Below are positions 15,351 to 32,880 of a stretch of DNA of 34,928 bases, one piece after another (position 1 is the first letter of the stretch; each line of letters opens with the position of its first letter). The DNA is taken from positions 1-34,928 of IMG/VR virus record IMGVR_UViG_3300046536_000329. One strand, 5' to 3'. The stretch is from a virus. Made by a program: the position numbers and the translations under genes. A model generated the notes under the pieces. That model was not told the DNA's origin. It saw only the letters and a list, made by a program, of their open reading frames with translations, and searched no databases.

Positions 15351-15358
15351 AGCACCTC

Positions 15359-17644: not shown

Positions 17645-17983
17645 TCACCGGGCCTGCTTGCGGGCGTTGCAGCCACGGCACAGCACCTGGATGTTGCCCG
17701 GATCGTCGGTGCCGCCGCGCGCCTTGGGTGTGATGTGGTCGCCGGTCAGGTCACTGGATGCGTGGGCCGGCACTCCCCATCCGGGGCACCAGTCGCCGTG
17801 TGCTGCCTTGTGCTCGGCCACTGCTGCGGCTGCTGCGGTGCGCCAGGCCTGGGTGTAGCCGCGCTGGTGGGCGCTGCCTCGGGTGCGGTCTTGCTGCTGC
17901 TGCCACTGCTGTTGGTGTGCGTCACAGCGTGAGGCGTTGCGGGTGAGGACACTGCATACCAGGCAGGGGCGTTGGCGTCTCAT
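17645..17983 (-). CDS. HNH endonuclease
   Basis: This encodes 112 residues; the ATG overlaps the stop of the upstream gene (ATGA at 17980-17983). An N-terminal Cys pair (Cys7, Cys10) is followed by a Gln-rich helix, then the HNH core: WCPGWGVPAH, LTGDHITPKARGG (Asp82, His83), DDPGNIQVLCRGCNARK (Asn97, Cys102, Cys105, Asn106). The Cys residues suggest zinc binding. In HK97 an HNH protein next to the terminase stimulates cos cleavage. The position immediately upstream of the terminase pair supports the same role here. Confidence 0.9.
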   Translation of the reverse strand: MRRQRPCLVCSVLTRNASRCDAHQQQWQQQQDRTRGSAHQRGYTQAWRTAAAAAVAEHKAAHGDWCPGWGVPAHASSDLTGDHITPKARGGTDDPGNIQVLCRGCNARKQAR

Positions 17984-18243
17984 ACTCGTTGCGGCCAGGC
18001 CCAGGTGCCGGGCTCGTCGCCCTCGTGACGTGAGGTGGCCCAGTAGTTGTCAGGTCCGTCGAGCAACACCTTGAGGTTCAGCGCCTCGTCGCCGAATGCC
18101 GCGACGACAATGGCCGGGTACGTACTGCCGGACCTGGCCAGGTTGGCGGCGGTGCTGTCGTGGCTGCGCTGCTGCTGGATACGGCGGGCGTCGTCGTCGG
18201 TCAGTCGGTACATGACGATGCGCCCCATGGTGGGCAAGGGCAT
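17980..18243 (-). CDS. Unknown 87-residue protein upstream of HNH
   Basis: The ATG at 18243 follows GGGAGG at good spacing, and the stop overlaps the HNH start by four bases. The sequence has a helical middle (LTDDDARRIQQQRSHDSTAA) and a beta-rich C-terminal half (TYPAIVVAAFGDEALNLKVL, NYWATSRHEGDEPGTWAWP). No catalytic or metal motif is evident. The coupling to HNH suggests a late or packaging-stage accessory function. I do not recognise a family. Confidence 0.65.
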   Translation of the reverse strand: MPLPTMGRIVMYRLTDDDARRIQQQRSHDSTAANLARSGSTYPAIVVAAFGDEALNLKVLLDGPDNYWATSRHEGDEPGTWAWPQRV

Positions 18244-18329
18244 GGCTGCCTCCCGGCGCCGGTGGGTTGTTGCACGGCGACGGCCCGGGGATCAGGTCCG
18301 CCGGGACGCCGCCGTGACTCTGGGGCCGG

Positions 18330-18539
18330 TCAGAGCCGGTGGATCTGGAAGGCGAGGGAGATGCGCGCCAGGCGTGCCCGCTCCTGCACCGCGAGGGGGA
18401 TCGGAACGGGGGTGGGGCCGCAGCAGCCCTTCAGGCAGGTCGGCTCTCCGTCCGAGACGAGGTGGACGTGCTTGCCCTGTGCGGCGAGCAGGTGGGCGGC
18501 CTCGGCGGCGCTCCGGGGCGCCTCGACTGTGGCGGGCAT
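18330..18539 (-). CDS. Small unknown protein with Cys pair
   Basis: This encodes 69 residues. The ATG at 18539 follows GGAGG at five bases. It contains EAAHLLAAQGKHVHLVSDGE, a compact Cys motif CLKGCC, and a C-terminal helix (LAVQERARLARISLAF). It is the first gene after the hairpin at 18561-18583, so it may open the late transcript, though no promoter is obvious. No function can be assigned. Confidence 0.5.
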   Translation of the reverse strand: MPATVEAPRSAAEAAHLLAAQGKHVHLVSDGEPTCLKGCCGPTPVPIPLAVQERARLARISLAFQIHRL

Positions 18540-18560
18540 GGGCGCCTCCGGGTACGACAA

Positions 18561-18583
18561 AGGCCCCGCCAGTGGCGGGGCCT
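18561..18583 (-). terminator. Rho-independent terminator after the HTH gene
   Basis: A perfect 10-base stem (AGGCCCCGCC) with a three-base loop. On the minus strand it is followed by TTTGT once the last stem bases are counted. It lies 70 bases after the stop of the HTH gene (18653) and just before the ribosome site of the next gene, so it separates the early leftward transcripts from the packaging and structural operon. A late-gene promoter or antitermination would be needed downstream. Confidence 0.7.
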
Positions 18584-18652
18584 CGGGTGTCTGTGATGCC
18601 CGTTTGGGGGCATGACTGTACGCGGAAAGGGTGACACCTGAGTGATCGCAGG

Positions 18653-18853
18653 TCAAGCGGCCTTGTGCGCGCGGCGTTTCAGCGCGAGGGCGGTGACCTC
18701 CTCGACCGCGTACCAAGGCTGCCCGGTGCTGCCGCCGGCGTGGGAGAGCTGGCCGCGCTGGACCATCTTGCGGACGGCGGGAAGGCTGACGCCGAGGACG
18801 CGGGCGACCTGGTGGGCGGTGAGGTGGCCGGGCCGGATGATCTGCGACTCCAT
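18653..18853 (-). CDS. Helix-turn-helix DNA-binding protein (excisionase/MerR-like)
   Basis: This encodes 66 residues. The segment LTAHQVARVLGVSLPAVRKM is a typical HTH of the excisionase/MerR group, followed by a wing-like stretch with GQPWYAVEEVTALALKRR. The ATG at 18853 has a GGAGG only one base upstream, so the ribosome site is not ideal and the start is less sure. It stands alone between two hairpins, at the border between the transfer-like genes and the packaging genes. It could control late transcription or act as a recombination directionality factor; a second excisionase-like gene is at 31183-31509. Confidence 0.75.
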   Translation of the reverse strand: MESQIIRPGHLTAHQVARVLGVSLPAVRKMVQRGQLSHAGGSTGQPWYAVEEVTALALKRRAHKAA

Positions 18854-18979
18854 GCCTCCATGATGCGGCAGCGGTGTCGCTCGCGGGTGCTATCTCGGAG
18901 GCCGGTTCCGGGGCGATCCGATCCCCTCGCGGCGAGGCCCGAAACTCGAAACTTCCCAGCTCGGGGCCGATATCGGGGG

Positions 18980-18993
18980 CGAAACCGGTTTCG
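18980..18993. promoter_or_regulatory. Palindrome CGAAACCGGTTTCG, candidate operator
   Basis: A perfect 14-base palindrome in the 186-base gap between the translocase gene and the HTH gene. It shares its right half with the large inverted repeat at 18985-19029. CGAAAC/GAAACC-type words recur in this gap (for example near 18949, 18957, 19003 and 19021). This suggests binding sites for a dimeric regulator, possibly the adjacent HTH protein. Seen in sequence; the function is inferred. Confidence 0.45.
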
Positions 18994-19029
18994 GATCAAG
19001 GTGAAACCGCACCCTTGATCCGAAACCGG
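18985..19029 (-). terminator. 17-bp inverted repeat after the translocase gene
   Basis: Perfect 17-base arms at 18985-19001 and 19013-19029 enclose an 11-base loop. On the minus strand it begins 10 bases after the translocase stop (19040) and is followed by TTTCG. It is likely a terminator for the translocase operon, and its left arm also forms part of a shorter palindrome, so it may double as an operator. Confidence 0.6.
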
Positions 19030-19039
19030 GTTGAGGACC

Positions 19040-21169
19040 CTACTCGGCGTCTTCGGCGGCGGGCAGATCGGCGTACCGCAGGCCCTTCGCGCCGCCGCAG
19101 CACTCCCGGATGGTGAGCTGCCGGGTGGACACCTTGAACGGCTTCAAGGCGGCACTCAGCGCGGTGGATGCTCCAGCGGCGTCCATGTCGGTCCACGGGC
19201 GGTACAGGTCGGCCCGGTACGCGGCGAGGGCCTCGACGAGCCGGTGCGAGTGGGCCGTCTCGACTCCGTCGGGCCAGATGGCGCGCAGGTGGTCGAGGAC
19301 CGTCTCGACGTCCTGCTCCTCGACCTGGGCGCCGATGGCCTGCCCGGTGAGGGTGCCGGCGGCGGTGCGGAGCGCGAGGGCGCGCTTGCCGATGTCCTCG
19401 GCCTCGGTCTGCTTGATGAACGCGGCCCGCACGGTGATGCCCTCGCGGCCGCGGGCGAGGATGCCGGTTCCCGGCTCGTCGATGCTGATGTCCGTGGCGC
19501 GCATGCCGCGGTCGTAAGCGCCAGTGCCGAGCACGTTGTTGTTGGCGCGCCAGTCCATGACGGCCAGGCACAGGCGGGTCCCGACGCTGCTGGACACGGA
19601 GGACGGCAGGGACGGGGCGTCCGGGTTCTGGGTGAGCAGGATGAGGATGAGGCCGTAGGCGCGGCCCTTCTTGATGAGCCGGGTCGCGAGGGCGGCGGCC
19701 TCGTCCTTGTAGTCGGCGTGGGTGAACAGCTCCTGCACCTCGTCGATGACGATGACGCGGGGGCCGAGCTGCTGCTCCGGATACTTCTCTGCGAGCGCCC
19801 GGGTGACGCGGCGCCCGTCGGGGACCTCGGACGCGGGCAGGCCCTTGATGAACTTGGCGCGGCGCTGGTACTCGGCGATCCCGGAGCGCATGCCGCCGAG
19901 GGCGGCCTCCAGGTCCTCGTCCTCGTCGCCTGACACATAGCGGTGACAGACGGGCTTGACGGAGTCGAGGTCGCCGGAGCCCTTGAGTTCGTAGATCCAC
20001 AGTTCGGCGGTGGGGTCGAGGGCGACGCCGAGGACGATGGCGAGCGCGCACGACGTCTTGCCGGAGCCGGGGATGCCGCCGACGAGGAGGTTGGAGTACA
20101 TGAGGGTGATCTCGATGAGGTTGCCGCGCGGGTCGAAGCCGTAGGGCAGCGGCTCGTACACGTCGGCCTGGCCGTCCTTCATGAGCGGCCACAGCTTCCG
20201 GCCGGCCTTGGCCGGGTCGCGCTGGGCGACCCACAGCACGAGACGGCCCGGGTGGGCGGTGCGGTCGACGGACGGCCACACGGTGCTGATGGGGCGTCGC
20301 ATGGCGGCGGCGAGCGCCTCCCGCTTCTCCAGGACCTCGGCGGCCTTGATGCCCGGGGGCAGGTCGACCTCGGCGCGCCAGCCGGGCCCGTCTCGCATGA
20401 CCTCGGAGGCGAACTCCGTGCCGCGGCGGCCCTTCTTGCCCTCGATGCCGATCGCGGCGAGCGCGTCGAGGACCTCGGTGGAGTCGAGGCGGCGCAGGAT
20501 GTTGGTGGCGACGTAGCGGGTGATCAGCGGCTTGCCGTCGCGCTTCTTGCCGTTGAGGCCGATGAGAGTGGTAGCGGTGAGCGTCGCGGTGAGCGTCCAG
20601 CCGGGGGCCAGGAAGCAACCGACCAGCGTGGTGATGCCGGTGGTCGTGGCGACGGCCACGGAGGTGATGCGGCGCGGGCGGACGCGGCGGGAGTGCTCGC
20701 GGGACAGCGTGAGCCAGGCCTCGATGTCCGCGGACGCGGCGGCCTTGGCCTCGACGGGCCGGGCCTCGGTGTCGGCGACCCACTTGCCCCAGCGGAGGAC
20801 CATGCGGGCGAGGCCGCGGGGCGCGCGGGTGAGCAAGCGCAGGGCGTAGACGGGCAGACGGATGGCGTGGAAGCCGGTGACGTGGCCGTAGTAGGACGCC
20901 GTCCAGCGGGCGGCGTTGACGAACTCGGCGGCGTTGCGCAGGAAGGTCGGGATGACGGGCGGGGCCTCGGCGAGGTACGCCTGCCGTTCGGCCACCCAGG
21001 TGCCGGGCAGTGCCTGTTCGGCGGGCGGGTCGACGGGGCGGAGGACGGCGTCCTGGACGACGTCGATGACCGTCTCGGTCAGGACGTCGCGGGCGTCCTC
21101 GGTGAAGCGCTGGGTGTCCGGCGCGTCCTGCGGGGCGTCCTTGTGGAGCTGGATCACGGTGTCAGTCAT
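19040..21169 (-). CDS. FtsK/SpoIIIE-type DNA translocase (Tra-like)
   Basis: This encodes 709 residues. The ATG at 21169 has only a weak, distant AGGA. Residues 1 to about 160 are soluble with helical parts. A hydrophobic stretch near 165-205 (SVAVATTTGITTLVGCFLAP, LTATLTATTLIGL) would anchor it in the membrane. The motor domain has Walker A LLVGGIPGSGKTSCALA (about 360-375), Walker B PRVIVIDEVQELF (about 470-478), and a following YGLILILLTQNPDAPSLP typical of FtsK/SpoIIIE ATPases. No FtsK gamma domain is obvious, but the C-terminal 100 residues could bind DNA. In actinomycete plasmids and integrative conjugative elements, such single FtsK-like proteins move double-stranded DNA between hyphae. 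Here it lies at the end of an operon of small membrane proteins. It could instead aid phage DNA replication or segregation. Confidence 0.88.
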   Translation of the reverse strand: MTDTVIQLHKDAPQDAPDTQRFTEDARDVLTETVIDVVQDAVLRPVDPPAEQALPGTWVAERQAYLAEAPPVIPTFLRNAAEFVNAARWTASYYGHVTGFHAIRLPVYALRLLTRAPRGLARMVLRWGKWVADTEARPVEAKAAASADIEAWLTLSREHSRRVRPRRITSVAVATTTGITTLVGCFLAPGWTLTATLTATTLIGLNGKKRDGKPLITRYVATNILRRLDSTEVLDALAAIGIEGKKGRRGTEFASEVMRDGPGWRAEVDLPPGIKAAEVLEKREALAAAMRRPISTVWPSVDRTAHPGRLVLWVAQRDPAKAGRKLWPLMKDGQADVYEPLPYGFDPRGNLIEITLMYSNLLVGGIPGSGKTSCALAIVLGVALDPTAELWIYELKGSGDLDSVKPVCHRYVSGDEDEDLEAALGGMRSGIAEYQRRAKFIKGLPASEVPDGRRVTRALAEKYPEQQLGPRVIVIDEVQELFTHADYKDEAAALATRLIKKGRAYGLILILLTQNPDAPSLPSSVSSSVGTRLCLAVMDWRANNNVLGTGAYDRGMRATDISIDEPGTGILARGREGITVRAAFIKQTEAEDIGKRALALRTAAGTLTGQAIGAQVEEQDVETVLDHLRAIWPDGVETAHSHRLVEALAAYRADLYRPWTDMDAAGASTALSAALKPFKVSTRQLTIRECCGGAKGLRYADLPAAEDAE

Positions 21170-21206
21170 GCTGTTCGGGTCCTGCCTCTCGGTGAGGTGT
21201 GGGACG

Positions 21207-21250
21207 CCCGGGGACGGCGACTTGCTTGGCGGTGGGACGCCGTCCCCGGG
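21207..21250 (-). terminator. Hairpin upstream of the translocase gene
   Basis: 13-base perfect arms (CCCGGGGACGGCG at 21207-21219 and its complement at 21238-21250) with an 18-base loop, placed between the stop of the upstream gene (21257) and the translocase start (21169). It has no T-run. It may lower read-through into the translocase gene or protect the upstream message. Confidence 0.5.
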
Positions 21251-21256
21251 GTGGAG

Positions 21257-21592
21257 CTAGCGGTGGCGGCGGAGCTCGCGTTCGATGCGGCGGCCGGCCT
21301 GCTCGTGCTCGTGCATCTGCTGGCGGGCGGCGGCACGCTCCTTGCCGCTGCTGGTGCGCATGGTGACCTTGGCGCCCGCGGTGGCCCGGCGGGTCTCGCT
21401 GAGGCGGCGCTCCAGCTCGGCGACCTCGGCCTTCCCGCGCTCCTCGGCGCGCTCGTCGATGCGCTCGACCTCGCGCTTGAGGCGGTCGTCGATGGTGTCG
21501 GCGTTGCGGTCCCCGGCGAGGGACTGCTTGGCGGCCTTGGCGATGAGCCAGGTCTTGCGGCGCCTCTCGGCTGCGGTGTACGAGGCGGGCAT
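21257..21592 (-). CDS. Charged helical protein, unknown
   Basis: This encodes 111 residues from an ATG with GGAGG seven bases upstream. Almost all is predicted helix with dense Arg, Glu and Lys (LKREVERIDERAEERGKAEV, QQMHEHEQAGRRIEREL), suggesting a coiled coil. It lies between small proteins of the membrane-protein operon and the translocase. It could be a partner of the translocase or a nucleic-acid-binding protein; I do not recognise a family. Confidence 0.65.
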   Translation of the reverse strand: MPASYTAAERRRKTWLIAKAAKQSLAGDRNADTIDDRLKREVERIDERAEERGKAEVAELERRLSETRRATAGAKVTMRTSSGKERAAARQQMHEHEQAGRRIERELRRHR

Positions 21593-21594
21593 GG

Positions 21595-21804
21595 TCAGGC
21601 CTCCGGGGTGGTGTCGTCGGTGGGGGTGGCCTGGGCGATGAGCAGGTGGGTGCGGGCGATCGAGTCCCACAGGGTGCCGGCGGCGGCGTAGGGGGCGGCC
21701 TTGTGCGGGCCGTCGCCCCGGGCCGCGTTCTCGGCCCATCCGGCGAGCCGCTCCGCATGGGTGACTGCGGCGTCCGCCAGCTTCAGGTGTGCGTCTCGGT
21801 TCAC
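21595..21804 (-). CDS. Small helical protein, unknown
   Basis: This encodes 69 residues from a GTG with AGGAGG five bases upstream. Helical and Ala-rich (HLKLADAAVTHAERLAGW, GTLWDSIARTHLLIAQAT). The stop lies two bases before the next ATG. Similar short proteins occur in actinomycete mobile elements, but I know of no function. Confidence 0.6.
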   Translation of the reverse strand: MNRDAHLKLADAAVTHAERLAGWAENAARGDGPHKAAPYAAAGTLWDSIARTHLLIAQATPTDDTTPEA

Positions 21805-21817
21805 GGGTTCCTCCTGG

Positions 21818-22120
21818 TCAGCGGTGCTTTTGGATGTCGGTCCAGATGGAGCGGAGAACGAGGGCGAGGATCGCGACCGAGACGGCGCCGATGGCTACAG
21901 CGACGGCGAACAGGGCGGCGACCAGGCCCCCGGCGATGCCGAGCCCACCGAGGACCAGCCACTTCTTCGCGTCGAACTCGGAGCGGGCCGGCGCCGGGGC
22001 GGGCGCCTGCTGCTGCGTGGCCTGCTGCACGGCGAGGATCGCGGCGATCGTCCGCACCAGCTCGGTGTTGTCGGCGGCGGCGACGGCGTCCTGTGCCGCC
22101 TTCTCCAGCGGGTTGGTCAT
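21818..22120 (-). CDS. Small membrane protein, Spd-like position
   Basis: This encodes 100 residues. The ATG overlaps the stop of the upstream gene (ATGA at 22117-22120). The N-terminal half is soluble and has a Gln/Ala/Pro linker (QQATQQQAPAPAPA). Residues about 54-92 are hydrophobic (WLVLGGLGIAGGLVAALFAV, AIGAVSVAILALVL), probably two closely spaced spans, ending in a basic tail. In Streptomyces plasmids, clusters of small membrane proteins next to the FtsK-like gene are involved in plasmid spread; that role is inferred from context. Confidence 0.65.
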   Translation of the reverse strand: MTNPLEKAAQDAVAAADNTELVRTIAAILAVQQATQQQAPAPAPARSEFDAKKWLVLGGLGIAGGLVAALFAVAVAIGAVSVAILALVLRSIWTDIQKHR

Positions 22121-22281
22121 GTGGCCCACCTCCGCAGGGTGCGGGCGAGGGACGGCCAGGCGAGGACGCCGACCAGGACGGCGAGGACGACCGGGTGCAG
22201 GACGACCGTGGTGGCCAGGCCGAGGAGCGGCGGGTAGGCGACGAGGAGGCCGAGGAAGGCTCCGAACAGGACGCGCATCAT
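22117..22281 (-). CDS. 54-residue membrane protein
   Basis: The ATG at 22281 overlaps the TGA of the upstream gene, and its own TGA overlaps the next ATG, so it is translationally coupled on both sides. Two hydrophobic helices (VLFGAFLGLLVAYPPLLGLA and VVLHPVVLAVLVGVLAWP) are followed by a basic end (LARTLRRWAT). Gene order and topology recall Spd-type spread proteins. The double overlap makes it a convincing gene despite its size. Confidence 0.7.
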   Translation of the reverse strand: MMRVLFGAFLGLLVAYPPLLGLATTVVLHPVVLAVLVGVLAWPSLARTLRRWAT

Positions 22282-23129
22282 GCGAGCACTCCTTGCCGTT
22301 CGGGGAGGGCGTCCGGGTGGAAGAGGTTGCGTCCTCGGGCGTCCTTGCTGTGGACGGTGAGGCGTCCTACGTCGACCCAGGACCGGACGGTGGACATCGC
22401 GATGTCGTACCGCTCGGCGACCTGTGCGGACGTCATGAGGGGCGGCTCGGGCGGCGGCCCGTCGTCGGCGTCCTCGGCGTCCTGGCCCGTCCCGGGCGGG
22501 AGTTCGGGCGTCCCGCCGTCGTCCTGCTGCTCCTCTCGTTCGAGGGTGACGGTGGGCGGTCCGACGGGCTCGGGCAGTGCCTCGGGCGCGGCCTCGGGGA
22601 CGCTCGGGACGGCGGCGGACGCGGGTACGTCCTCGACGTCTGGGGTGTCCTGGTGGGCGTCCGGCGGGCTGGCCGCGAGGTGCAGGAGGTGTCCGACGAC
22701 GGCGGGTGGGACGAGGCTGGTGACGGCGATCAGGACGGGCTGGTCGGCGATGACGTGCCCGGTGGTGATGAGGTGGCTGACCACCTGGGCGGCCATGGCG
22801 AGGCCGAGGGCGAGGCAGGCGCCGATGATGGCGGACCAGCGGCCCCGGTCCCCGCTGCGGCGGGTGGAGGCGACGGCGGCGGCGATGCCCGCGTAGGCGG
22901 ACAGGACGACCGGCATGCCGTAGGTGAAGGGGTCGTTCCATCCGGCGGTCTCGGCGAGGTGGTACTCGCCGGGCGCGCACATGAGGAGGGCGACGCCGAG
23001 GACGATGGGGCGTCCGCCGGCGGTGAGGCCGCGCACCCACAGCGGAGCGGAGGAGCGGGGGCCGGCGTGCGGGGTGGCCCGCTTGAACGGGCGGGCCAGC
23101 CGGGTGACGGCGCGACGGAGGCGGCTCAC
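22278..23129 (-). CDS. Multi-span membrane protein with C-terminal HTH (DUF2637/Spd-like)
   Basis: This encodes 283 residues from a GTG overlapping the upstream stop (GTGA at 23126-23129). After a basic start, four hydrophobic stretches occur between about residues 40 and 150 (GRPIVLGVALLMCAPGEYHL, YGMPVVLSAYAGIAAAVAS, WSAIIGACLALGLAMAAQVV, VLIAVTSLVPPAVVGHLLHL). This resembles the DUF2637/Spd pattern of actinomycete plasmids. A Pro/Glu/Asp-rich linker follows, then from about 232 an HTH of the MerR/excisionase kind (MTSAQVAERYDIAMSTVRSW, VDVGRLTVHSKDARGRNLFH). A membrane anchor joined to a DNA-binding head suggests tethering of element DNA to the membrane near the translocase. The family name is tentative. 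Confidence 0.65.
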   Translation of the reverse strand: MSRLRRAVTRLARPFKRATPHAGPRSSAPLWVRGLTAGGRPIVLGVALLMCAPGEYHLAETAGWNDPFTYGMPVVLSAYAGIAAAVASTRRSGDRGRWSAIIGACLALGLAMAAQVVSHLITTGHVIADQPVLIAVTSLVPPAVVGHLLHLAASPPDAHQDTPDVEDVPASAAVPSVPEAAPEALPEPVGPPTVTLEREEQQDDGGTPELPPGTGQDAEDADDGPPPEPPLMTSAQVAERYDIAMSTVRSWVDVGRLTVHSKDARGRNLFHPDALPERQGVLA

Positions 23130-23554
23130 GAGGCCTCACCGCCATATCGCTTCGGGTTGCAGATCCTGCAGGTGTGTTCCGCGCTGCCCTCGGCGCAGTT
23201 GTCGACGCACGACCGGCACCAGCCGGTGTCTTTGTGGCGGGCGCGGCCGTTGAACCGGACGTCGGTGGGGTCGAACGAGCGGTGGCAGCGGCCGCACTTG
23301 TTCTTGGCGCGCTCGTCGGCCTTGGCCTGCTCGGCGGCCAGCTTGCTGCGGAGGTAGCCGACGTTCCAGCCGAGGTCTGCCGGGTCTTCGGCGAGGGCGC
23401 CCTTGACGGTGGCCCGTACCCACAAGGCGCGGTCGAGGATCCGCTGGTCATGGTCGAGGGCGCCGCTGGGGAGGGTGATCGCGTCGAGGACGGCGTCGAG
23501 CAGGGCTCGAAGGGCAGCGGCCTCGGTGGGCTTGTTCGTGGAAAGATCGGCCAT
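23126..23554 (-). CDS. Zinc-binding protein, first gene of the transfer-like operon
   Basis: This encodes 142 residues, ATG at 23554 with AAGGAG six bases upstream. The N-terminal 80 residues are helical. The C-terminal part has Cys pairs at 87/90 (NKCGRCHRSFDP), 113/116/120 (GWCRSCVDNC) and 129/132 (HTCRICNPKRYGG), enough for two zinc sites, with basic residues between. A nucleic-acid-binding or scaffold role is possible. It is the first gene after the promoter proposed at 23659-23688 and is coupled by GTGA overlap to the membrane-HTH gene. Confidence 0.7.
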   Translation of the reverse strand: MADLSTNKPTEAAALRALLDAVLDAITLPSGALDHDQRILDRALWVRATVKGALAEDPADLGWNVGYLRSKLAAEQAKADERAKNKCGRCHRSFDPTDVRFNGRARHKDTGWCRSCVDNCAEGSAEHTCRICNPKRYGGEAS

Positions 23555-23599
23555 AGCCGTCTCCTTGTATGTGCAGGGAGTTCGGTCAGGCCCTGCCTT

Positions 23600-23613
23600 G
23601 GTGGTGACACACC
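23600..23613. promoter_or_regulatory. Operator-like site 1, GGTGG-N5-CACC
   Basis: GGTGGTGACACACC, the first of three 14-base sites of the same form between the zinc-protein gene and the divergent small gene. It lies in the leader of the leftward transcript. Confidence 0.5.
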
Positions 23614-23644
23614 TCGGTAGGGCCGCTTAGTTTGTGCTGGTCTA

Positions 23645-23658
23645 GGTGGCTAGCCACC
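23645..23658. promoter_or_regulatory. Operator-like site 2, perfect palindrome
   Basis: GGTGGCTAGCCACC is a perfect 14-base palindrome. It lies immediately downstream of the proposed -10 element of the leftward promoter, where a bound protein would block transcription. Confidence 0.6.
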
Positions 23659-23688
23659 ACTCTATGCGCGCCCATGGACGGGTGGCAA
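23659..23688 (-). promoter_or_regulatory. Candidate leftward promoter of the transfer-like operon
   Basis: On the minus strand TTGCCA (23688-23683) and TAGAGT (23664-23659) are separated by 18 bases, a good match to the housekeeping promoter of Streptomyces. Transcription would start near 23650 and run into the zinc-protein gene at 23554. Operator-like site 3 overlaps the -35 and site 2 abuts the -10. Confidence 0.6.
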
Positions 23689-23694
23689 TACACC
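23681..23694. promoter_or_regulatory. Operator-like site 3, GGTGG-N5-CACC
   Basis: GGTGGCAATACACC overlaps the proposed -35 of the leftward promoter and lies 17 bases before the ATG of the small rightward gene, so the same protein could control both directions. Confidence 0.5.
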
Positions 23695-23710
23695 GTGCGA
23701 AGATTCGGTC

Positions 23711-23890
23711 ATGCCATCCGTTCACAAGAACCCTGCGAAGACATTCAGGCCCGACCCCGACCTGTACGAACGGGCCAAGGACGCGGTGGCCGAGGTCGGG
23801 TCGGACATGAACGGACACCTGGTCTCGTTCCTGCGCTGGCTCACGCATGAGACGGATGAGCTTCCGCAGCGCCCTCCCCGCCCGGAATAG
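23711..23890 (+). CDS. Small ribbon-helix-helix-like regulator
   Basis: This encodes 59 residues on the plus strand, the only rightward gene outside the repressor/integrase block. It begins MPSVHKNPAKTFRPDPDLYE: a short strand (KTFRPD) followed by a helix (DLYERAKDAVAEVG), a turn and a second helix (MNGHLVSFLRWLTHETDE), the order of ribbon-helix-helix dimers. The ribosome site is weak (GAAG). Three dyad sites lie just upstream, which suggests it represses its own gene and the divergent operon. Its 3' end overlaps by 50 bases, tail to tail, with the gene at 23841-24518. The fold is my reading of a short sequence. Confidence 0.7.
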   Translation: MPSVHKNPAKTFRPDPDLYERAKDAVAEVGSDMNGHLVSFLRWLTHETDELPQRPPRPE

Positions 23891-24518
23891 CCGGCTCTTC
23901 CTCGGTCGGCTGGAAGTGGTGCAGCATCAGGAAGTCGTCCGCCTCGTAGACGTACTCGCACCACGGGCACACCAGGCTCGTCTCGCCGTTCCGGTGCCGC
24001 AGGGGCGCCCCGCACACCGCGCCGTCCGCGCCGACGACGGTGACGCACTGACCGATCCGCCGGCCACGGTCGTCGCCCTCGCCGAGGATGGACAGCGCCT
24101 CGCCCTCCAGGCTGCGGACCGCCCTGGCCAGGTCCCCGGCCGACGGGTACTCGGCAGCGATCCACTCGACGTTCATCCAGAGCCATCGTGCGGCGACCAG
24201 GATGCGCCGGTCCACGCCCCGCTCGATGACGGGCTCGCCCCAGCCACGCCACGCCTGTACGTCCGAGCGCCAGCGTTCCAGGACGCTGGCCATGCCGCCG
24301 TACCAGAGGTCCAGCGCGCTCTCGTTGAGCGGCGACGAGGGCCCGGGGTGCCCCGCAGAGACGCGCTCCATCGCGCCGCGGGCCACCGGGGTGAGCGCCC
24401 CGCTCAGCCGCCCGGCCAGGGCGGGCAGGCGCTGGAGCCGCTCGACGAGGGCGAGCGTGTCGCCGGGGCACAGATGGCCGTACTCCAGCGGACGCTCGCA
24501 CAGGCCGCAGACGTTCAC
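23841..24518 (-). CDS. Zinc-ribbon protein, unknown
   Basis: This encodes 225 residues. The GTG at 24518 overlaps the TGA of the upstream gene (GTGA). An N-terminal Cys cluster (VNVCGLCERPLEYGHLCPGD) and a C-terminal one (IGQCVTVVGADGAVCGAPLR, then LVCPWCEYVYEADDF) flank a helical middle with Trp-rich parts (WLWMNVEWIAAEYPS). Two separated zinc sites are likely. Proteins of this layout are common in Streptomyces phages; I know of no function. It ends the mid-early group and runs into the 3' end of the rightward small gene. Confidence 0.7.
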   Translation of the reverse strand: MNVCGLCERPLEYGHLCPGDTLALVERLQRLPALAGRLSGALTPVARGAMERVSAGHPGPSSPLNESALDLWYGGMASVLERWRSDVQAWRGWGEPVIERGVDRRILVAARWLWMNVEWIAAEYPSAGDLARAVRSLEGEALSILGEGDDRGRRIGQCVTVVGADGAVCGAPLRHRNGETSLVCPWCEYVYEADDFLMLHHFQPTEEEPAIPGGEGAAEAHPSHA

Positions 24519-24757
24519 TTGGTGCTCTCTTCCTTCGGCTCGGCGAGTGCGGCCCGCAGTTCGACGGCGGCGCCGCCGTACGCGCGGAGGATGGCCCACC
24601 GCCGGGCGAGTCGGTTGGCCCGCTCGATGGCGGCCTCGGCCGCCAGGGCGCGCTTCTTCCACTCGTCGCCGCGCCGCCATCCTCTGGAGGCGTTGTCGTA
24701 CAGCTCGTCGAGGGCGTTGTCGTTGATGGTGCTCGCGGTGTGCCGGGGCTGGCTCAT
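24515..24757 (-). CDS. Small basic helical protein, unknown
   Basis: This encodes 80 residues. The ATG overlaps the stop of the upstream gene (ATGA) and the stop overlaps the next GTG, so it is embedded in a coupled string. Mostly helix (NDNALDELYDNASRGWRRGD, EWKKRALAAEAAIERANRLA, RRWAILRAYGGAAVELRAAL). No motif recognised. Confidence 0.6.
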   Translation of the reverse strand: MSQPRHTASTINDNALDELYDNASRGWRRGDEWKKRALAAEAAIERANRLARRWAILRAYGGAAVELRAALAEPKEESTK

Positions 24758-25125
24758 GCGGTGCTGTCCTTCCTGGTGCAGGTGGCCGGGTCGTGCTCAG
24801 CGCCGGCGGTTGCCCACCAGGTCTCGCAGCAGGCGGCGGCCATGGCCTCGGCGACGGCGACCTCGGCGCCCGGGGCCCGGCGAGGGAGGGGCGGCCGGTC
24901 CGGGCAGTCGAGGGCGGCGGTGGCGCCGCCGAAGACCTGGGCCCTCGCCATGGCGTCGGCGTGCTCGGTCTCGCGCAGCAGGCCGATGAGCGGGACGACC
25001 GAGCTGGCGGACAGGGCGGCGACGGCCCACAGCGGGCCGTACATGGCCTGTTGGACGGTGGCGTAGGCGAGGAACAGGGAGGTGGCGCCGTAGATGCTGC
25101 ACACGACGCGGGCGAATCGGGTCAT
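24754..25125 (-). CDS. Membrane protein with two spans, unknown
   Basis: This encodes 123 residues, ATG at 25125 with AGGAGG nine bases upstream. Two hydrophobic helices at about residues 8-27 (VCSIYGATSLFLAYATVQQA) and 32-51 (LWAVAALSASSVVPLIGLL), then a soluble part with several Cys (LDCPDRPP, ACCETWWATAG, ATCTRKD). It is coupled to the following gene. Perhaps an exclusion or membrane-associated replication protein; no evidence either way. Confidence 0.6.
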   Translation of the reverse strand: MTRFARVVCSIYGATSLFLAYATVQQAMYGPLWAVAALSASSVVPLIGLLRETEHADAMARAQVFGGATAALDCPDRPPLPRRAPGAEVAVAEAMAAACCETWWATAGAEHDPATCTRKDSTA

Positions 25126-25129
25126 GAGG

Positions 25130-25738
25130 TCAGGCCTCCTCGGCGGTGGTGAACGGGTTCTGCTCCGGCGGGCCGCCCGCGCGGCGCCGTGCGAGGTACG
25201 CCTTGAACTCGTCGACGGCCTGCCTGTCGCCGGGCGTGAGGAGGGCGTTCGGGTTGTTGCCGCAGCGCGGGCCGACGGGCGTCTCCTCGGCGGGCGGGGT
25301 GGCGTCAGCCTTCCGGCGGAAGCGGCCAGCGAGCAGGCGGCACAAGTCGATGCAGCGGGCCTTTGCGCTCGGGTGGAAGTCGATGCCTTCGAGTTCGGTG
25401 GCGACCTCGGCGAGGACGGTGGCGCGGCTGCTGGCCAGCTCGGCGCGGAGTCGACGGACGTCAGCGACGAGCGCCAAGGCCACCGCCGGGTTCACAGCGG
25501 CGATGAACGCGGCGTCGGCCCACACGTTGCGGGTCTCGTCCCACGGCGTTTGGCTCATGGTCGGCAGCCAGGCGCGGAGGTCGGTGTCGTTTCCTTCGCC
25601 GGACAGGACTGTGGCGGTGTACCCGTACTGGCCGAGGTGGGTGTCGTGGTCGCGCCACGGTCCGGGCGTAGCTGCGGCGGCGCGGGTCTCGATCTCGTCG
25701 AGTTGCTGCTCGGTGAGCGGGTTGGGCTGGGTCTCCAT
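25130..25738 (-). CDS. Unknown 202-residue accessory protein
   Basis: The ATG at 25738 follows GGAGG. The N-terminal half (TEQQLDEIETRAAAATPGPW, then VWADAAFIAAVNPAVALALV ahead of DVRRLRAELA) is a pattern widespread in actinophage and Streptomyces accessory genes, where an ATPGPW motif is followed by an AxFIAxxxPxxxxxLV helix; its function is not known to me. The C-terminal half has a few Cys residues and a helix (GDRQAVDEFKAYLARRRAGG). It lies after a hairpin downstream of the helicase and before a coupled set of small genes. Confidence 0.65.
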   Translation of the reverse strand: METQPNPLTEQQLDEIETRAAAATPGPWRDHDTHLGQYGYTATVLSGEGNDTDLRAWLPTMSQTPWDETRNVWADAAFIAAVNPAVALALVADVRRLRAELASSRATVLAEVATELEGIDFHPSAKARCIDLCRLLAGRFRRKADATPPAEETPVGPRCGNNPNALLTPGDRQAVDEFKAYLARRRAGGPPEQNPFTTAEEA

Positions 25739-25767
25739 GGGTTCCTCCGTGGTGTGATGGGTGGAGG

Positions 25768-25794
25768 GCCGGGCCTGGTAACGACAGGCCCGGC
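25768..25794 (-). terminator. Hairpin after the helicase gene
   Basis: GCCGGGCCTG and its complement form a perfect 10-base stem with a 7-base loop, four bases beyond the helicase stop (25798). There is no T-run; it would terminate or attenuate transcription into the accessory genes. Confidence 0.55.
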
Positions 25795-25797
25795 TCG

Positions 25798-27423
25798 TTA
25801 CGCGGCGGGGACGAGCAGGGAGTCGAGGACCGACGTCACGTGGTCGGTGTCGATCAGGTCGGCGATGTCGCCGGCGGTGGCTTGGCGGGTGACGGCGATC
25901 CCGCGGCGGCGGCACAGGCCGAGTTGCTTCGGGCTCGGCTTGCCCGAGCGCCAGCGGGCCCGGCGGTCGACGAACGCGCCCGGGCCGAGGACACGCGCCT
26001 GCTGCTCCAGCCAGGCGAGGGCCTCGCCGAGCGGGCGGGCAGTGTCCTCGCGCGGCGGCTGCACGCCAGCGTCCGACGTCCAGCGGCGCATCCGGTAGAG
26101 GCGTGAGCCCGGGTCCCGGACGAGGAACAGCGTCATCGAGTTCGAGACGCGGATGAACCACGTACCGGCGGGCGTCCGGAGCCACCTGATGGACGAGCCG
26201 CCGAACAGGTTGAACTCCTCGGCCTCGATGCGGGCTGCGATGGCGTGGCGCTTCTCGGCGGCGACGGCGTCCTCGGCGACCTCGCGCAGGCTCTTGCCGT
26301 CCTCGGCCTGGGCCAGGTCCCTCGCGGTGAGGTCGACCATGGACGCGAGCTTGTGGCGGGTCGAGGCGCCCATCACGTCGAGCAGCAGGGCGTCGCTCTT
26401 GCCGGGCGACGGGCGCAGGCCTCGGCCGACCATCTGCACGTACAGGCCAGGTGACTTGGTCGGGCGGGCGACGACGATGCACGACGTGTGCGGGGCGTCG
26501 AACCCCTCGGTGAGCACCTGGCAGTTCGTCAGCACCTGTACGTGACCCGCCTCGTAGCGGCGCAGTACGGCCCGCCGGTCCTCGCGCGGCATGTCGCCCC
26601 ACACGGGGGCCGCAGTGATCCCGGCGGCGCGCAGCGACTCGGCGGCGGCCTGCGCGGTGGCCACGGTCGGCGTGAAGACGACGCCGGGCCGGTCCGGGGC
26701 GTGCTCGACGTACGCCGCGGCGATGGCGTCCAGCGCTCCTGAGTCCTCCAGTGCCCGGCCGAGCTGCCCCTCGACGAGGTCTCCGTTCCTCGTCTTCACC
26801 TTGTCCAGGTCGAGGGTGTCGACGGTGATCCGCAGGCCGCGGACGTCGCAGAGGTAGCCGTCGCCGATCATGTCGAGGATGTCGAGGGTGAAGACGACGC
26901 TCGACCAGACCTCGGCGAGGCCGCCGTCCGTGCGGGTCATGGTCGCGGTGAAGCCTGCGACGGGAGTCCCGCGCCAGGCACCGAAGTGGGCGAGCACCTC
27001 CATGTAGGTGCGGGCCGCCGCGTGGTGGCACTCGTCGACCACGACGAGGCCGATGTCGAGGATGGCCCGGCGGCGCTTCTCTACAGCCAGGGTCTGGACG
27101 CTGGCGACGATGACGTCGGCGTCCTGGTGCTCGTCGCGTTCGGCCTTGACGATGCCGACGCGCAGGTCTGGGCGGACAGCCCGGATCTTGGCGGCGGCCT
27201 GCTCGATGAGTTCCTCGCGGTGGGCGATGACGAGGACGCGCTGACCGCGCAGCGTCACCCGCAGCCGGCTGATCAGGTTGGCGATGATCACGGTCTTGCC
27301 TGCGCCGGTCGGCAGTACGACCGCGATCCGGTTGTGCGGTCCGGCCCACCCGTCGATCAGGGCCTGGATCGCGTCGTCCTGGTACGGGCGAGGCTTGAAG
27401 GTCTCCAGTACGGCGGTGCTCAT
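25798..27423 (-). CDS. DEAD/DEAH-box (superfamily 2) helicase
   Basis: This encodes 541 residues, ATG at 27423 with GAGGTG upstream. Motifs in order: a Q-like PRPYQDDAIQALIDGW, Walker A LPTGAGKT (37-44), motif Ia VLVIAHREELIEQ, motif II VVVDECHHA (Asp130-Glu-Cys-His), motif III GFTATMTRTDGG, then in the second RecA domain QVLTEGFDAPHTSCIVVARP and motif VI QMVGRGLRPSPGK. This is the set of RadD/ResIII-like helicases. The C-terminal 150 residues may bind DNA. Its start borders the proposed origin, and the primase gene lies on the other side, so it probably opens DNA for replication; a repair or anti-host role is possible. Confidence 0.92.
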   Translation of the reverse strand: MSTAVLETFKPRPYQDDAIQALIDGWAGPHNRIAVVLPTGAGKTVIIANLISRLRVTLRGQRVLVIAHREELIEQAAAKIRAVRPDLRVGIVKAERDEHQDADVIVASVQTLAVEKRRRAILDIGLVVVDECHHAAARTYMEVLAHFGAWRGTPVAGFTATMTRTDGGLAEVWSSVVFTLDILDMIGDGYLCDVRGLRITVDTLDLDKVKTRNGDLVEGQLGRALEDSGALDAIAAAYVEHAPDRPGVVFTPTVATAQAAAESLRAAGITAAPVWGDMPREDRRAVLRRYEAGHVQVLTNCQVLTEGFDAPHTSCIVVARPTKSPGLYVQMVGRGLRPSPGKSDALLLDVMGASTRHKLASMVDLTARDLAQAEDGKSLREVAEDAVAAEKRHAIAARIEAEEFNLFGGSSIRWLRTPAGTWFIRVSNSMTLFLVRDPGSRLYRMRRWTSDAGVQPPREDTARPLGEALAWLEQQARVLGPGAFVDRRARWRSGKPSPKQLGLCRRRGIAVTRQATAGDIADLIDTDHVTSVLDSLLVPAA

Positions 27424-27426
27424 GGT

Positions 27427-27790
27427 TCACCTCGGTTCGGTTGCTGGGCTTTTGCAGGGAGTGCAGGGAGTCGGCGGGAGTCGTGCAGGGAGTCCCGCGT
27501 CAGGTAGCTGTGCCGGTGATCTGCGGTTTTGCAGGGAGGCAGGGAGTTGCAGGGAGTTAGCTATGGGCTTACGTGGTGAGAGATCCGGCGGAATCGTCGA
27601 GAGATCCACACCGCAGATGTGGTGTGCGATGCATGAGGGACGCGCGCGCTGTAAGGGGGGCGGTAGGAACTCCCCGCAACTCCCCGCCTCCCTGCGTCGG
27701 CGCAGACCAGGCCCTGTGCAGGGAGGCGGCGAGGTCCCTGCACAGGTCCCTGCCAGGTCCCTGCACTCCCTGCGTCCAGCCCGGCGGCCG
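27427..27790. other. Candidate replication origin with GCAGGGAG iteron-like repeats
   Basis: A 364-base gene-free block between primase-helicase and helicase genes. GCAGGGAG occurs as direct copies at 27454, 27463, 27485, 27531, 27539, 27549 and 27718. The opposite orientation appears on the right: CTCCCTGC at 27688 and 27766, GTCCCTGC at 27734, 27746 and 27757, and CTCCCCGC at 27670 and 27680. The middle (about 27557-27650) is less G+C-rich, has two GAGAGATCC copies (27578 and 27599) and a dyad around CCACA...TGTGG (27606-27622). Clustered short repeats beside a Prim-Pol gene are the usual look of an origin. It may also hold the helicase promoter. Confidence 0.6.
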
Positions 27791-30451
27791 TCATGACTCG
27801 TGCCGTCCTGTGCCGCGCTGCTCGTGGACCTCGACGCGCCAGACGTTCGCGCGGCGGTGCGCGTCCCAGACCTTGACCACCTTGTGCGTGCCGAAGTACC
27901 GGCCGGCACGGCTCTTCAGCCAGCCGCCCAGGACGTTCGGGGTCGGCATCTCGCCGGTCTTCGGGTGGCGCGGTACGTGGTCGGCGACCGAGCCGAGCAC
28001 GGCGCTCGTCGTCTGCGCCTGGTCGCCGAGCTTCTCCCGCCAGGACTCAAGGAACGCCGACCACTCCAGCTGCTCGTCGTCCTGGTCGATGGCCTTGTCG
28101 CGGTCGGCCATCCACCCCTCGACGCCGAGGAAGGCCAGGAGGCCGGCCACCATGGAGGCCCATTCCGAGTAGTCGCCCTTCCGGATGCGCTCGGTCGGGG
28201 CGCCAGCGGCGAGCCAGGCCCGGACCATGGTGACGAGGGCGGCCACGACCGTGGAGGCGTTGGCGCGCAGCCACGGGCGGAGGTCTCCCACGCGGAAGCC
28301 GTCGCGCTGGTCCGGGTCGGGACAGTTGGGGTCCAGGCGCACCCACATGACGCGGCGTCCGTTGTCGCCGCCGGTGCGCAGGGCGTTGCCGGTGACGATC
28401 CAGACGCGGTCGTTCGGCATGGTCACCGACGAGGTGGAGCCGAGGACGCGGTCACCCCAGTGCTCGGCGGTGAGCAGCGACGACAGGACCGGGCTCTTCA
28501 GCACGAACCCGTTGGGCAGATTGTCGAGGACGACGACCGGTTGCCCGGTCGTGTAGAGCTGGGTGGTGATGCTCTTCCGCAGCTCGGTGTCGTTCTCGGG
28601 CCAGGCGGTCTCGGAGATCCCGTACGCCGCCTTGAGGATGTCCTTCAGCAGGGACTTGCCCGAGCCCGGCGCGGTCGCCGTGAGGATCCACATGGGCGTC
28701 GGCCCATAGAAGTGCGGTCGCAGGATGGGGGTGAGCAGGGCCCCCAGGAAGTGCGCCCTGTCGGACGGCTCCTGCCAGGGGAAGTCGGCGAGCATGTCGC
28801 CGAGGAGGATCGACTTCGCGCGCTCCAGGCTCTCGCTGGTGACGTCGGGCTGAAGGCGGCGCAGCGGCACGCGCGGCTCAAGGTAGAGACCAGTCGGCCG
28901 GTCGTAGCCGGGCTCGCGCAGCAGCGTCCCGTCCGGCCGGACCACGGGCGAGGTGACGATGCCGCGCAGCCGAGGGAGCGGCCACGTGCGCCGGCCGAGG
29001 ATCGTCGAGCAGGTCTTCGGCATGAGCAGCTCGCGCTCGTGCTTCATGCCCTCGGTGAGGGGGTCGGGGCGGACCGTGTAGGTGGCGACGTGCTCGGCGA
29101 GGTAGGCCCGCAGGTTGTCGGTGCCGAGCTGCTGCATGGTCGGGTTGCCCTCGTCGTCCTTGTGGACCCACGTGGGCCCACCGGAACGGGCGTAGAGGTC
29201 CGGGAGACGGCCCTCGTTCATCAGGCCGAGGACGCCGTCGAGCGCGTCGGCCTCGTTGGTGATGTCCAGCTCGGGGGTGCTGCTGACGAGGCGCAGGCCG
29301 GGGCCGTCTCCTGCGACCTCGTCGGGCGCGTGCTCGGCGTCGAGCGCAGATGATCCGTCGCTGAAGTGCCGAGGCTGCTGCTGTGAGACGAGGTTGAGCG
29401 GGCGGGTGTCGGTGCCGAATCCGCGCCCGCGCAGCTCGGCGGCGGCGCGCTTGAAGTGCTCGGTGGTGGTGCCGCCCTGCGTCAGGTGCGCGTACGCGGC
29501 GAACTTGTCGTAGGGCGTCTCGGACTCGAACGTCGTCGAGGTGGTGAAAACGTACAACCGGTCCCGGTCTGCGGCGTGGCCGGTCGTTGCCGAGATCCCC
29601 TGGTTCTTCCCCTTGCGCCGCCAGTACGTCGTGCTGCCGCGCGTGAAGATCGGATCGAACTCGTCACCGATGATCTGCGGCCAGTCGGTGCGGGCCTCGA
29701 AGTCATCGCCGGGCCGGACAGTGCCGGCGGGAAGCTCTCGCTTCGGGCGCGGCGCTGTCTTCGCCTTTTCCTCGCGAGGCATTGCGTCGACCATCTGGCA
29801 GATGGCGTGCACCGCGTCGAGCGTGTCCGGGTCGAGGGTCGGGATGCTGCTCGGGCCGCCGGCGAGGCGGAGGTACGGGAGCCCGGATGCGTGGACCGGA
29901 CCGCCGGACGGCTCGACCAGTCCGTAGCCACCCTCGCCGCGGGTCTCGATGAGGACGCGCACGATCCGCGAATTGGGCTTCTCCGCGACGCGCTGCCGCT
30001 CCTCCGCGCTGTACTCATCCTCGCGCGCAAGGCGGCTGGCCAGCTTCTTGTTACCGGCGACGCCGTCCTCGACACGGATCCGGTAGTGCACGCCACCGGA
30101 GGGCGACTGGCTCGCCCATCCCGTGGTGATGCTCTGCCACACGTCGCCGAGGCCGGACCCTTCCATGATCTCGGTGACCTCGTCGAGAACACGGTCGCGC
30201 ACGGCGAGGCCCTCGAACTCCAGCATCTCGACGTTCCCCGAGACGCCGCCGTAGACCACGGCGATGCCCCGCGGGCGGTCGCCGCTGAACCACTGGTCGT
30301 GCTCGTCGGGAGTGCTGCGGGCGACCTTGTACGGAAGCCAGGACACGGCCGGCTTCTTGGTGCCGTCGGCCTTGATGGGCAGGACGCACAGGCCAGCGTC
30401 GTCCAACTCGCGGGCTGCCGCCCGGAGGTCCGGGGTCTGCTCGTCGGTCAA
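27791..30451 (-). CDS. Bifunctional primase-polymerase (Prim-Pol) with helicase domain
   Basis: This encodes 886 residues. The TTG at 30451 overlaps the upstream TGA (TTGA) and has GGGGAGAAG before it. Residues 8 to about 200 are an archaeo-eukaryotic primase-type Prim-Pol domain: CVLPIKADGTKKPAVSW, then VEMLEFEG (acidic residues 78 and 80), then SPSGGVHYRIR (His122). A linker with a second conserved part follows. The C-terminal half is a P-loop helicase: ILTATAPGSGKSLLKDI (about 590-605), VVVLDNLPNGF (about 640), RVWIVTGNALRTGGDNGRRV with an arginine-finger region, typical of SF3/D5-like or AAA+ replication proteins. Such fused proteins initiate replication of actinomycete phages and integrative elements. 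It is probably the element's initiator and acts at the adjacent repeats. Confidence 0.88.
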   Translation of the reverse strand: MTDEQTPDLRAAARELDDAGLCVLPIKADGTKKPAVSWLPYKVARSTPDEHDQWFSGDRPRGIAVVYGGVSGNVEMLEFEGLAVRDRVLDEVTEIMEGSGLGDVWQSITTGWASQSPSGGVHYRIRVEDGVAGNKKLASRLAREDEYSAEERQRVAEKPNSRIVRVLIETRGEGGYGLVEPSGGPVHASGLPYLRLAGGPSSIPTLDPDTLDAVHAICQMVDAMPREEKAKTAPRPKRELPAGTVRPGDDFEARTDWPQIIGDEFDPIFTRGSTTYWRRKGKNQGISATTGHAADRDRLYVFTTSTTFESETPYDKFAAYAHLTQGGTTTEHFKRAAAELRGRGFGTDTRPLNLVSQQQPRHFSDGSSALDAEHAPDEVAGDGPGLRLVSSTPELDITNEADALDGVLGLMNEGRLPDLYARSGGPTWVHKDDEGNPTMQQLGTDNLRAYLAEHVATYTVRPDPLTEGMKHERELLMPKTCSTILGRRTWPLPRLRGIVTSPVVRPDGTLLREPGYDRPTGLYLEPRVPLRRLQPDVTSESLERAKSILLGDMLADFPWQEPSDRAHFLGALLTPILRPHFYGPTPMWILTATAPGSGKSLLKDILKAAYGISETAWPENDTELRKSITTQLYTTGQPVVVLDNLPNGFVLKSPVLSSLLTAEHWGDRVLGSTSSVTMPNDRVWIVTGNALRTGGDNGRRVMWVRLDPNCPDPDQRDGFRVGDLRPWLRANASTVVAALVTMVRAWLAAGAPTERIRKGDYSEWASMVAGLLAFLGVEGWMADRDKAIDQDDEQLEWSAFLESWREKLGDQAQTTSAVLGSVADHVPRHPKTGEMPTPNVLGGWLKSRAGRYFGTHKVVKVWDAHRRANVWRVEVHEQRGTGRHES

Positions 30452-30681
30452 GGCTTCTCCCCGTAGTGGTGCCGGGCGAGGTGCTCGGTCTTGATGGCGC
30501 GGGCGAACTCCGGAACGCCGTCGCCGTAGGCCGGCCCTTCGCGGCGCTGGGGGCAGCCAGGGCGGTAGCACTCGTAGCGGGCGCGGCGGTTTTCCATGTC
30601 GACGATCAACAGGGCGTCGATCCCCTGGGGGGCGGCCGTGTGGCCCGGAACGTCCCGGGCCTGCGCGGCGGAGCCGGTCAA
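30448..30681 (-). CDS. Small zinc-finger-like protein upstream of Prim-Pol
   Basis: This encodes 77 residues. The TTG at 30681 overlaps the previous stop (TTGA), and its stop overlaps the TTG of the Prim-Pol gene the same way. It contains YECYRPGCPQRREGP (Cys38, Cys43) and EHLARHHYGEKP (His67, His71, His72), a possible C2H2 zinc site. The tight coupling to the Prim-Pol suggests a replication partner. The TTG start is inferred from the overlap; no upstream alternative was seen. Confidence 0.6.
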   Translation of the reverse strand: MTGSAAQARDVPGHTAAPQGIDALLIVDMENRRARYECYRPGCPQRREGPAYGDGVPEFARAIKTEHLARHHYGEKP

Positions 30682-31957: not shown

Positions 31958-32060
31958 TCAGCGCTCGTGATGAACGGCATCGGTGACCTGCTCGTACGTC
32001 TCTGTGAACCGTGCAAGCCCTGAACGACGCACCCCCACCTCAGTGCACAGGAGTGGCAGG

Positions 32061-32876: not shown

Positions 32877-32880
32877 CTAC

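Follow-up and report, generated by a model that had tools for sequence, protein, structure and literature searches.

The 34,928-base virus record analyzed here, which we refer to in its full length as the window (G+C about 70%), is by its gene content that of a temperate siphovirus whose left end is cut. We consider it probable, at roughly two chances in three, that this phage carries a complete actinobacterial TraB-type transfer cassette that moves circular dsDNA between compartments or hyphae without a virion. Actinobacterial conjugative elements push dsDNA from cell to cell by means of a DNA pump, a membrane partner, and a recognition site. The gene content of the window suggests that this Streptomyces-type prophage has conjugation, besides virus particles, as a means of spreading, the likely role of the cassette being to move prophage dsDNA across hyphal membranes. 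The homologies, the gene order, the position of the translocase in the tree, and the linkage and co-exchange of translocase and repeat array described below are direct observations.

Organization of the Virus Record

The plus strand carries only the integrase and an HTH repressor, and all other genes lie on the minus strand in one long series (Table 1). This series starts with HTH proteins, the Prim-Pol/helicase, an iteron-like gap, a DEAD helicase, small proteins, and a four-helix membrane protein, continues with further small proteins, the FtsK-like translocase, a MerR-like protein, HNH, TerS, TerL, and portal, and ends with the protease, capsid, adaptor, tail, and tape measure genes. The transfer cassette is located between the replication genes and the terminase genes, within this long early-late operon. 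The placement of the module in a siphovirus genome, as proposed in a preliminary description of this DNA, is borne out by PHROGs matches for TerS, TerL, portal, protease, capsid, adaptor, tail, and tape measure; of the features that define a temperate siphovirus, TerL, portal, protease, capsid, tape measure, repressor, and integrase are all present by PHROGs or profile matches. We take the record to be cut at its left end because a coding frame continues beyond the left edge and the window shows no lysis gene. Plus-strand ORFs in the structural region were rejected as shadow ORFs, as they are without family matches and the real genes lie on the minus strand. The stretch from the array to TerS (17645–18853) encodes the MerR-like protein, a phrog_19300 protein, and HNH; the MerR gene is the one next to the array in many relatives as well, and the cassette has its 3′ border there.

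AICEs are called by the occurrence of Int, Rep (RepSA, RepAM, or Prim-Pol), and Tra within 30–60 kb, with int at one end (PMC3218068). The window has Int, Prim-Pol, and FtsK, with the integrase gene at one end, but departs from the AICE definition in possessing virion genes, namely, a full head and tail gene set. Since prophages with Int, Prim-Pol, and FtsK would also be called as AICEs by the published computational definition (PMC3218068), censuses may mix AICEs and prophages. A domain search found no GntR/KorSA-type tra regulator among the window proteins scanned.

Table 1. Features of the Window, with Coordinates, Strand, and the Evidence for Each Assignment
Feature	Position	Strand	Evidence
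Tail genes overall	1252-9766	-	PHROGs
Tail protein	1252-4191	-	PHROGs
Tape measure	4209-7886	-	PHROGs
Tail protein	8708-9766	-	PHROGs
Packaging and head genes overall	11639-17495	-	PHROGs
Capsid	11639-13093	-	PHROGs
Protease	13233-13934	-	PHROGs
Portal	13942-15252	-	PHROGs
TerL	15359-17017	-	PHROGs
TerS	17007-17495	-	PHROGs
MerR/Xis-like HTH protein, first gene 3′ of array	18653-18853	-	phrog_2474
clt-like recognition array (candidate), directly 3′ of translocase	18939-19039	-	GTTTCG clustering; conservation; pSVH1-like position
GTTTCG copies	19021-19026(-), 18988-18993(+), 18980-18985(-), 18947-18952(-), 18940-18945(-)
TraB/FtsK-type dsDNA translocase, 709 aa	19040-21169	-	Pfam PF01580 FtsK_SpoIIIE above cut-off; tree; AF2/PDB
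Coiled protein, 111 aa, just 5′ of translocase	21257-21592	-	cluster of about 29 members adjoining FtsK
Small conserved protein, 69 aa	21595-21804	-	conservation
Small membrane protein, 100 aa, one TM segment	21818-22120	-	37-member cluster
Spd-like DUF2637-related membrane protein, 4 TM helices and C-terminal MerR-type HTH	22278-23129	-	hhalign, AF2
Cys-rich protein, 142 aa, translationally coupled to Spd-like gene	23126-23554	-	45-member cluster adjoining Spd-like gene
Conserved early protein	23841-24518	-	phrog_1467; 36-member cluster
Small membrane protein, 123 aa, one TM segment	24754-25125	-	TM prediction
DEAD/DEAH-type DNA helicase	25798-27423	-	phrog_16, E 9e-93
Iteron array, probable replication origin	27424-27790	-	GCAGGGA in both orientations, 12 copies
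Prim-Pol and AAA helicase replication protein	27791-30571	-	PF09250, E 6e-7; phrog_19930 full length, E 2e-297
HTH repressor	31983-32495	+	profile matches
Tyrosine integrase	32818-34539	+	profile matches

The Translocase and Its Relatives

The reading of the translocase as an FtsK/SpoIIIE ATPase with a membrane segment, made from the open reading frame, holds: the protein scores above the Pfam cut-off, carries two hydrophobic N-terminal helices at about residues 165–205 (prediction only), and has a predicted fold that matches FtsK and pCW3 TcpA (Z about 17, AF2 model vs PDB), with the AF2 model of the whole translocase being weak (pLDDT 60). The Walker A (GGIPGSGKT) and Walker B (RVIVIDE) motifs are intact, and are conserved in the alignment of relatives. 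The C-terminal domain (about residues 615–709) is predicted to adopt a wHTH-like fold (AF2, pLDDT about 80–88) and matches the C-termini of AICE TraB proteins (E 3.5e-28), with no match to pSVH1 TraB detectable by sequence.

Comparison of the translocase with 50,697 phage records gave a match to a single phage, represented by two records, with 27% identity across 45% of the translocase, and no plaque-forming phage with this TraB is present in that collection; the close relatives come only from prophages and metagenomes, with no isolated plaque-forming phages among them. Among plasmids, 60 records matched, including an AICE-like circle (41% identical over 87%) and pSVH1 TraB (31%, E 7e-26), a transfer protein studied by experiment. 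Scans of genomes and viral contigs provided 46 viral contigs and 21 bacterial loci as close relatives, mostly from Streptomyces, with some from Actinomadura. A translocase relative at E < 1e-30 occurs in 71 of 199 Streptomyces genomes, in most cases at 31–44% identity; where flanking DNA was included, the loci mostly have the standard AICE make-up of regulator, DUF2637, TraB, Prim-Pol, Rep, Xis, and integrase, and the common-family portal gene is absent from most of the genomes checked for it.

In a tree of 61 proteins, obtained by a quick method and with its deepest branches unsure, the window translocase falls in a phage group whose neighbors are an AICE copy (L062, 72% identical) and an element with TerS (L065); this phage group is nested in AICE TraB proteins of other families. 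The well-supported branches require at least eight changes between phage and other contexts, and the phage status of several rows was verified by tape-measure, tail, terminase, or portal matches. Thus, the outcome that the preliminary description had named as adverse to its proposal, clustering of the translocase only with phage-specific FtsK homologues, is not what the tree gives, as the protein nests in AICE TraB and phage and AICE contexts alternate. Phage L187 lies in a different AICE group, and two Pseudonocardia plasmids with phage genes (L003, L005) as well as the loci L049 and L050 also fall outside the group of the window; because of these separate placements, TraB was likely captured by phages several separate times. 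Support is thus good for the broader proposal that a siphovirus here contains a module for replication and transfer of the ICE or plasmid type, and a clt-like site was found in addition. The functional proposals of that description, spread without virions and maintenance as a plasmid, are more tentative.

FtsK is the most conserved gene among the relatives (mostly 76–95% identity), with portal, protease, and capsid mostly 23–50% identical or unrelated and the terminases in different families. For example, the TerL and portal of L016 belong to phrog_19179 and phrog_104. Among Streptomyces phage copies, the translocase has dN/dS values of 0.14–0.38, which are upper values, as high G+C depresses dS.

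A clt-like Repeat Array Directly 3′ of the Translocase

The preliminary description had missed the array at the 3′ end of the translocase gene. Its repeat is of the type GGTTTCG/CGAAACC, with a core of CGAAACCGGTTTCG and then CCCCCGATATC, and half of the GTTTCG copies of the window (5 of 10) are packed into about 90 bp 3′ of the translocase stop (P 5e-11, for a motif that was picked after the fact and then tested in other loci). GTTTCG is clustered 3′ of tra in 63 of 66 relatives; in a 64th, L054 (12112–12704), a gene is inserted between TraB and the array, with the array core preserved some 580 bp downstream. When 2.9 million viral contigs were scanned for the core CGAAACCGGTTTCGNCCCYGATATC, 38 stretches were recovered, 37 of which lie 49–60 bp after the stop of this translocase gene; for the 38th, the available DNA begins at the motif, on a contig known to carry the translocase gene.

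The window array is singled out by the hexamer count and by cross-locus conservation. By a blind statistic, which takes the commonest exact octamer within 250 bp, it does not stand out (rank p 0.13), because the array copies vary at their edges. As a control, a blind octamer count 3′ of pSVH1 traB returns GACCCGGA, in five copies at +15 to +106, four of them direct and one inverted, all within 115 bp of the traB stop; this octamer we take to be the published TRS of pSVH1. The clt locus holds 8-bp TRS repeats (PMC4170104), and that of pWTY27 comprises the last 16 bp of traA and 159 bp 3′ of it, with four 7-bp repeats (PMC3583192). Other AICE groups have different octamers at the same place, such as CCGCTAGC, CTAGAGGC, or ACCGGTAG. 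Judged by clustered 7–9 bp repeats as the sequence criterion, the window array qualifies as a clt-like candidate site. Two other assignments were rejected: a phage operator or stoperator, as GTTTCG is absent from the repressor region, and a simple T-tailed terminator, as no such site was found there. A stable hairpin is present in the array and might also act in termination, but its first arm is missing from several AICE and Actinomadura members that still have the CGAAACCGGTTTCG core or halves of it.

The best evidence that the array may be the translocase's own site comes from a natural replacement in two related phages, L049 and L050. Both share the MerR gene with the window (about 68% identical), and the capsid of L050 is 75% identical to that of the window, but their TraB proteins are only 29–30% identical to the window translocase. 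Directly after TraB, six AGGGAGG copies (P 1e-10 or less) replace GTTTCG, and are followed by the same MerR start region. By this comparison, translocase and array are exchanged together at these loci, and, because an unrelated TraB and an unrelated array sit between the same neighbors, the two behave as one exchangeable unit.

Membrane Partner and Small Cassette Proteins

The protein at 22278–23129 had been described as a multi-span DUF2637/Spd-like protein. Its membrane character stands, with four helices, as does the relationship to DUF2637 by profile comparison, in which its family aligns with a DUF2637 set, composed of the proteins adjoining TraB in AICEs and phage-plasmids, at an hhalign probability of 98.8 (E 7.7e-17, 118 columns). 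Taken alone, however, the window protein is below the threshold for Pfam DUF2637 (PF10935), to which it gives no match; homologues at the same position in L065, L067, L002, L003, and L005 pass this cut-off. The HTH of the window protein is predicted confidently by AlphaFold. A Spd-like protein lies upstream of FtsK in 48 of the 54 relatives with enough flank, and a Spd-like or another multi-TM protein in all 54. The two further small membrane proteins that had been noted in this region were also recovered, with one segment each (Table 1).

Spd-like proteins also occur in isolated Streptomyces phages (including L210 and L211), namely, mu1/6 (gp30, L004 17695–18474), Ponzi, and Success, in which no FtsK relative was detected. 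Because it is found there without FtsK, the role of the Spd-like protein need not always be conjugative.

Replication Module

The Prim-Pol/helicase and its adjacent repeat array, both pointed out previously, were recovered by profile matches and by motif counts, respectively. GCAGGGA occurs 20 times in the window, 12 of them in the 367-bp gap at 27424–27790 and 8 in the rest. Arrays of other octamers occupy the same spot in L016, L026, L028, L041, and L027, and the same octamer is found in L042. Differing octamer arrays at the same spot in relatives are as expected of a replication origin, and the iteron array is probably the origin of this phage. Iteron arrays between Prim-Pol and helicase are also a possible incompatibility determinant.

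Proposed Role of the Cassette and Alternative Explanations

From the gene content and order, we infer the following course of events. Upon induction, the prophage would be excised by its own tyrosine integrase, and Prim-Pol and helicase would replicate it, starting at the iteron origin. On the clt array, TraB would then bind and assemble as a hexamer, and it would drive the circular dsDNA, without prior processing, across hyphal membranes and into either the adjoining compartment or a recipient hypha in contact with the donor, with septal or hyphal-tip membranes as the presumed site of passage, and with the DUF2637-related and small membrane proteins assisting the passage of DNA. The transferred DNA would integrate in the recipient compartment without any virion being involved. 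As for plasmids, the cassette may serve transfer between mycelia, spread within one, or both.

The alternative that deserves most weight, although we consider it unlikely, is that the cassette serves spread within one mycelium only, TraB and the Spd-like proteins distributing replicated genomes through the septa of the same mycelium such that more compartments make virions, without transfer between mycelia. Plasmid Spd proteins do have a part in intramycelial spread (PMC4170104), a single long operon contains the cassette with replication genes on one side of it and packaging genes on the other, and mu1/6, Ponzi, and Success have the Spd-like gene alone; however, the same type of TraB and array is found in virion-less AICEs (L062, L194–L198), whose known role is transfer between mycelia. 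Far less probable is a motor for packaging or replication that helps the terminase, resolves concatemers, or segregates phage DNA. Such a role would predict that the translocase changes together with the terminase, which is not seen, as it is 80–95% identical across phages with different terminase and portal families; it is, moreover, common to AICEs without packaging genes and has membrane helices, and these points have to be set against its location just upstream of the terminase genes and its weak PHROGs matches to terminase and DnaB ATPases.

The nearest PHROGs family of the translocase, phrog_1358, is filed under moron and host takeover, and a TraB captured from an AICE could in principle be kept for toxicity or for blocking competitors rather than for transfer. 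We regard this as slightly more improbable again, given that 63 of 66 relatives keep the array at a constant distance, that it is exchanged along with TraB, and that the Spd-like partner is kept. Least probable of all is that the record is not a working phage and represents either an AICE whose phage genes were inherited or are decaying, or a chimera made up of contigs: while no lysis genes are seen and the left end is cut, the head and tail genes are long and intact, and dozens of contigs and isolate genomes independently show the same arrangement, among them a closed S. scabiei chromosome and L013, which has a TerL 97% identical to that of the window. Conjugal movement of prophage dsDNA is therefore the reading that we prefer, at the probability given at the outset.

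Comparison with Known Systems

Prim-Pol-type AICEs (L062; circular 18-kb plasmid, Streptomyces sp. NBC_00562) share with the window the order Spd/DUF2637, TraB, and 3′ repeat array, as well as Prim-Pol and a tyrosine integrase, with TraB 40–72% identical and, in L062, the same repeat type. What sets the window apart from these AICEs is its complete complement of head, tail, and terminase genes, a phage repressor instead of a GntR regulator, and a long early-late operon. The Pseudonocardia circular plasmids pPaSha2 (L003) and NZ_CP053567 (L005), which by their gene content are likely phage-plasmids, combine genes for capsid, portal, or terminase with DUF2637 and FtsK, and NZ_CP053567 has in addition a Prim-Pol and its own 3′ repeat array; they differ from the window in that their TraB proteins are only 33–40% identical, apparently a separate capture, and in being held as circular replicons. 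Gilgamesh gp10 is likewise a phage-encoded FtsK motor, but is 27% identical over 45% and branches elsewhere in the tree. Also different is pZL12, a 90-kb plasmid, in that it is not an integrating phage.

As described where it is cited (PMC3583192), pZL12 (J Bacteriol 2010) is a Streptomyces plasmid-phage with a lytic phage cycle and conjugal transfer, and by this description it is a precedent for a dual phage/conjugal element. The TraB/clt/SpdB2 system of pSVH1 resembles the window in its membrane-anchored FtsK motor, the integral membrane Spd partner upstream (PMC4170104), and 8-bp repeats directly 3′ of traB (four direct and one inverted); it differs in that its TraB is only 31% identical in the motor, its repeat is another, and SpdB2 is not detectably related to DUF2637. 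FtsK-like proteins are also known from isolated actinophages, such as Omega of cluster J (PMC3706429); the cluster J FtsK is a phage-encoded motor like that of the window, but without a membrane domain, and resembles host FtsK (PMC3706429).

Broader Implications

Already known, then, are AICEs, actinophage FtsK genes (PMC3706429), and, from its citation in PMC3583192, a plasmid-phage with conjugal transfer (pZL12). What is new here is the repeat array directly 3′ of the translocase stop, at the position of the pSVH1 clt repeats. In the full-text literature searched (subscription papers fell outside it), prophages with an AICE-type TraB, Spd, and clt cassette, or the wide distribution and exchange of such a cassette, are undescribed.

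If the proposed role is correct, prophages could spread without killing their host or finding a receptor, by way of hyphal contacts and septa, which would be helpful in mycelial bacteria, where virions reach only exposed hyphae. It would also account for the translocase being conserved better than any other gene among phages that are otherwise unrelated, and the distinction between temperate phages and conjugative elements would become less sharp. An octamer array 3′ of tra could provide a simple signature for predicting clt sites and for sorting AICEs from phages. More tentatively, at odds we put somewhat short of even, many mosaic actinobacterial prophages may be dual-mode elements that either make virions or undergo TraB-driven conjugation of circular dsDNA, with TraB and clt traded among phages, AICEs, and small TerS-bearing elements.

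An element of the last kind, of roughly 15 kb, is found in S. albus (L065, 5836–20903, identical to viral contig L039) and in L201. It has the same Spd–TraB pair, together with a TerS-like gene (PF05119, just below cut-off), a primase, XRE, and an integrase, and neither a portal (PF04860) nor a tape measure (PF10145) is found anywhere in the S. albus genome of L065. From its gene content, it looks like a satellite or a TerS-carrying AICE, and thus a third context for the cassette.
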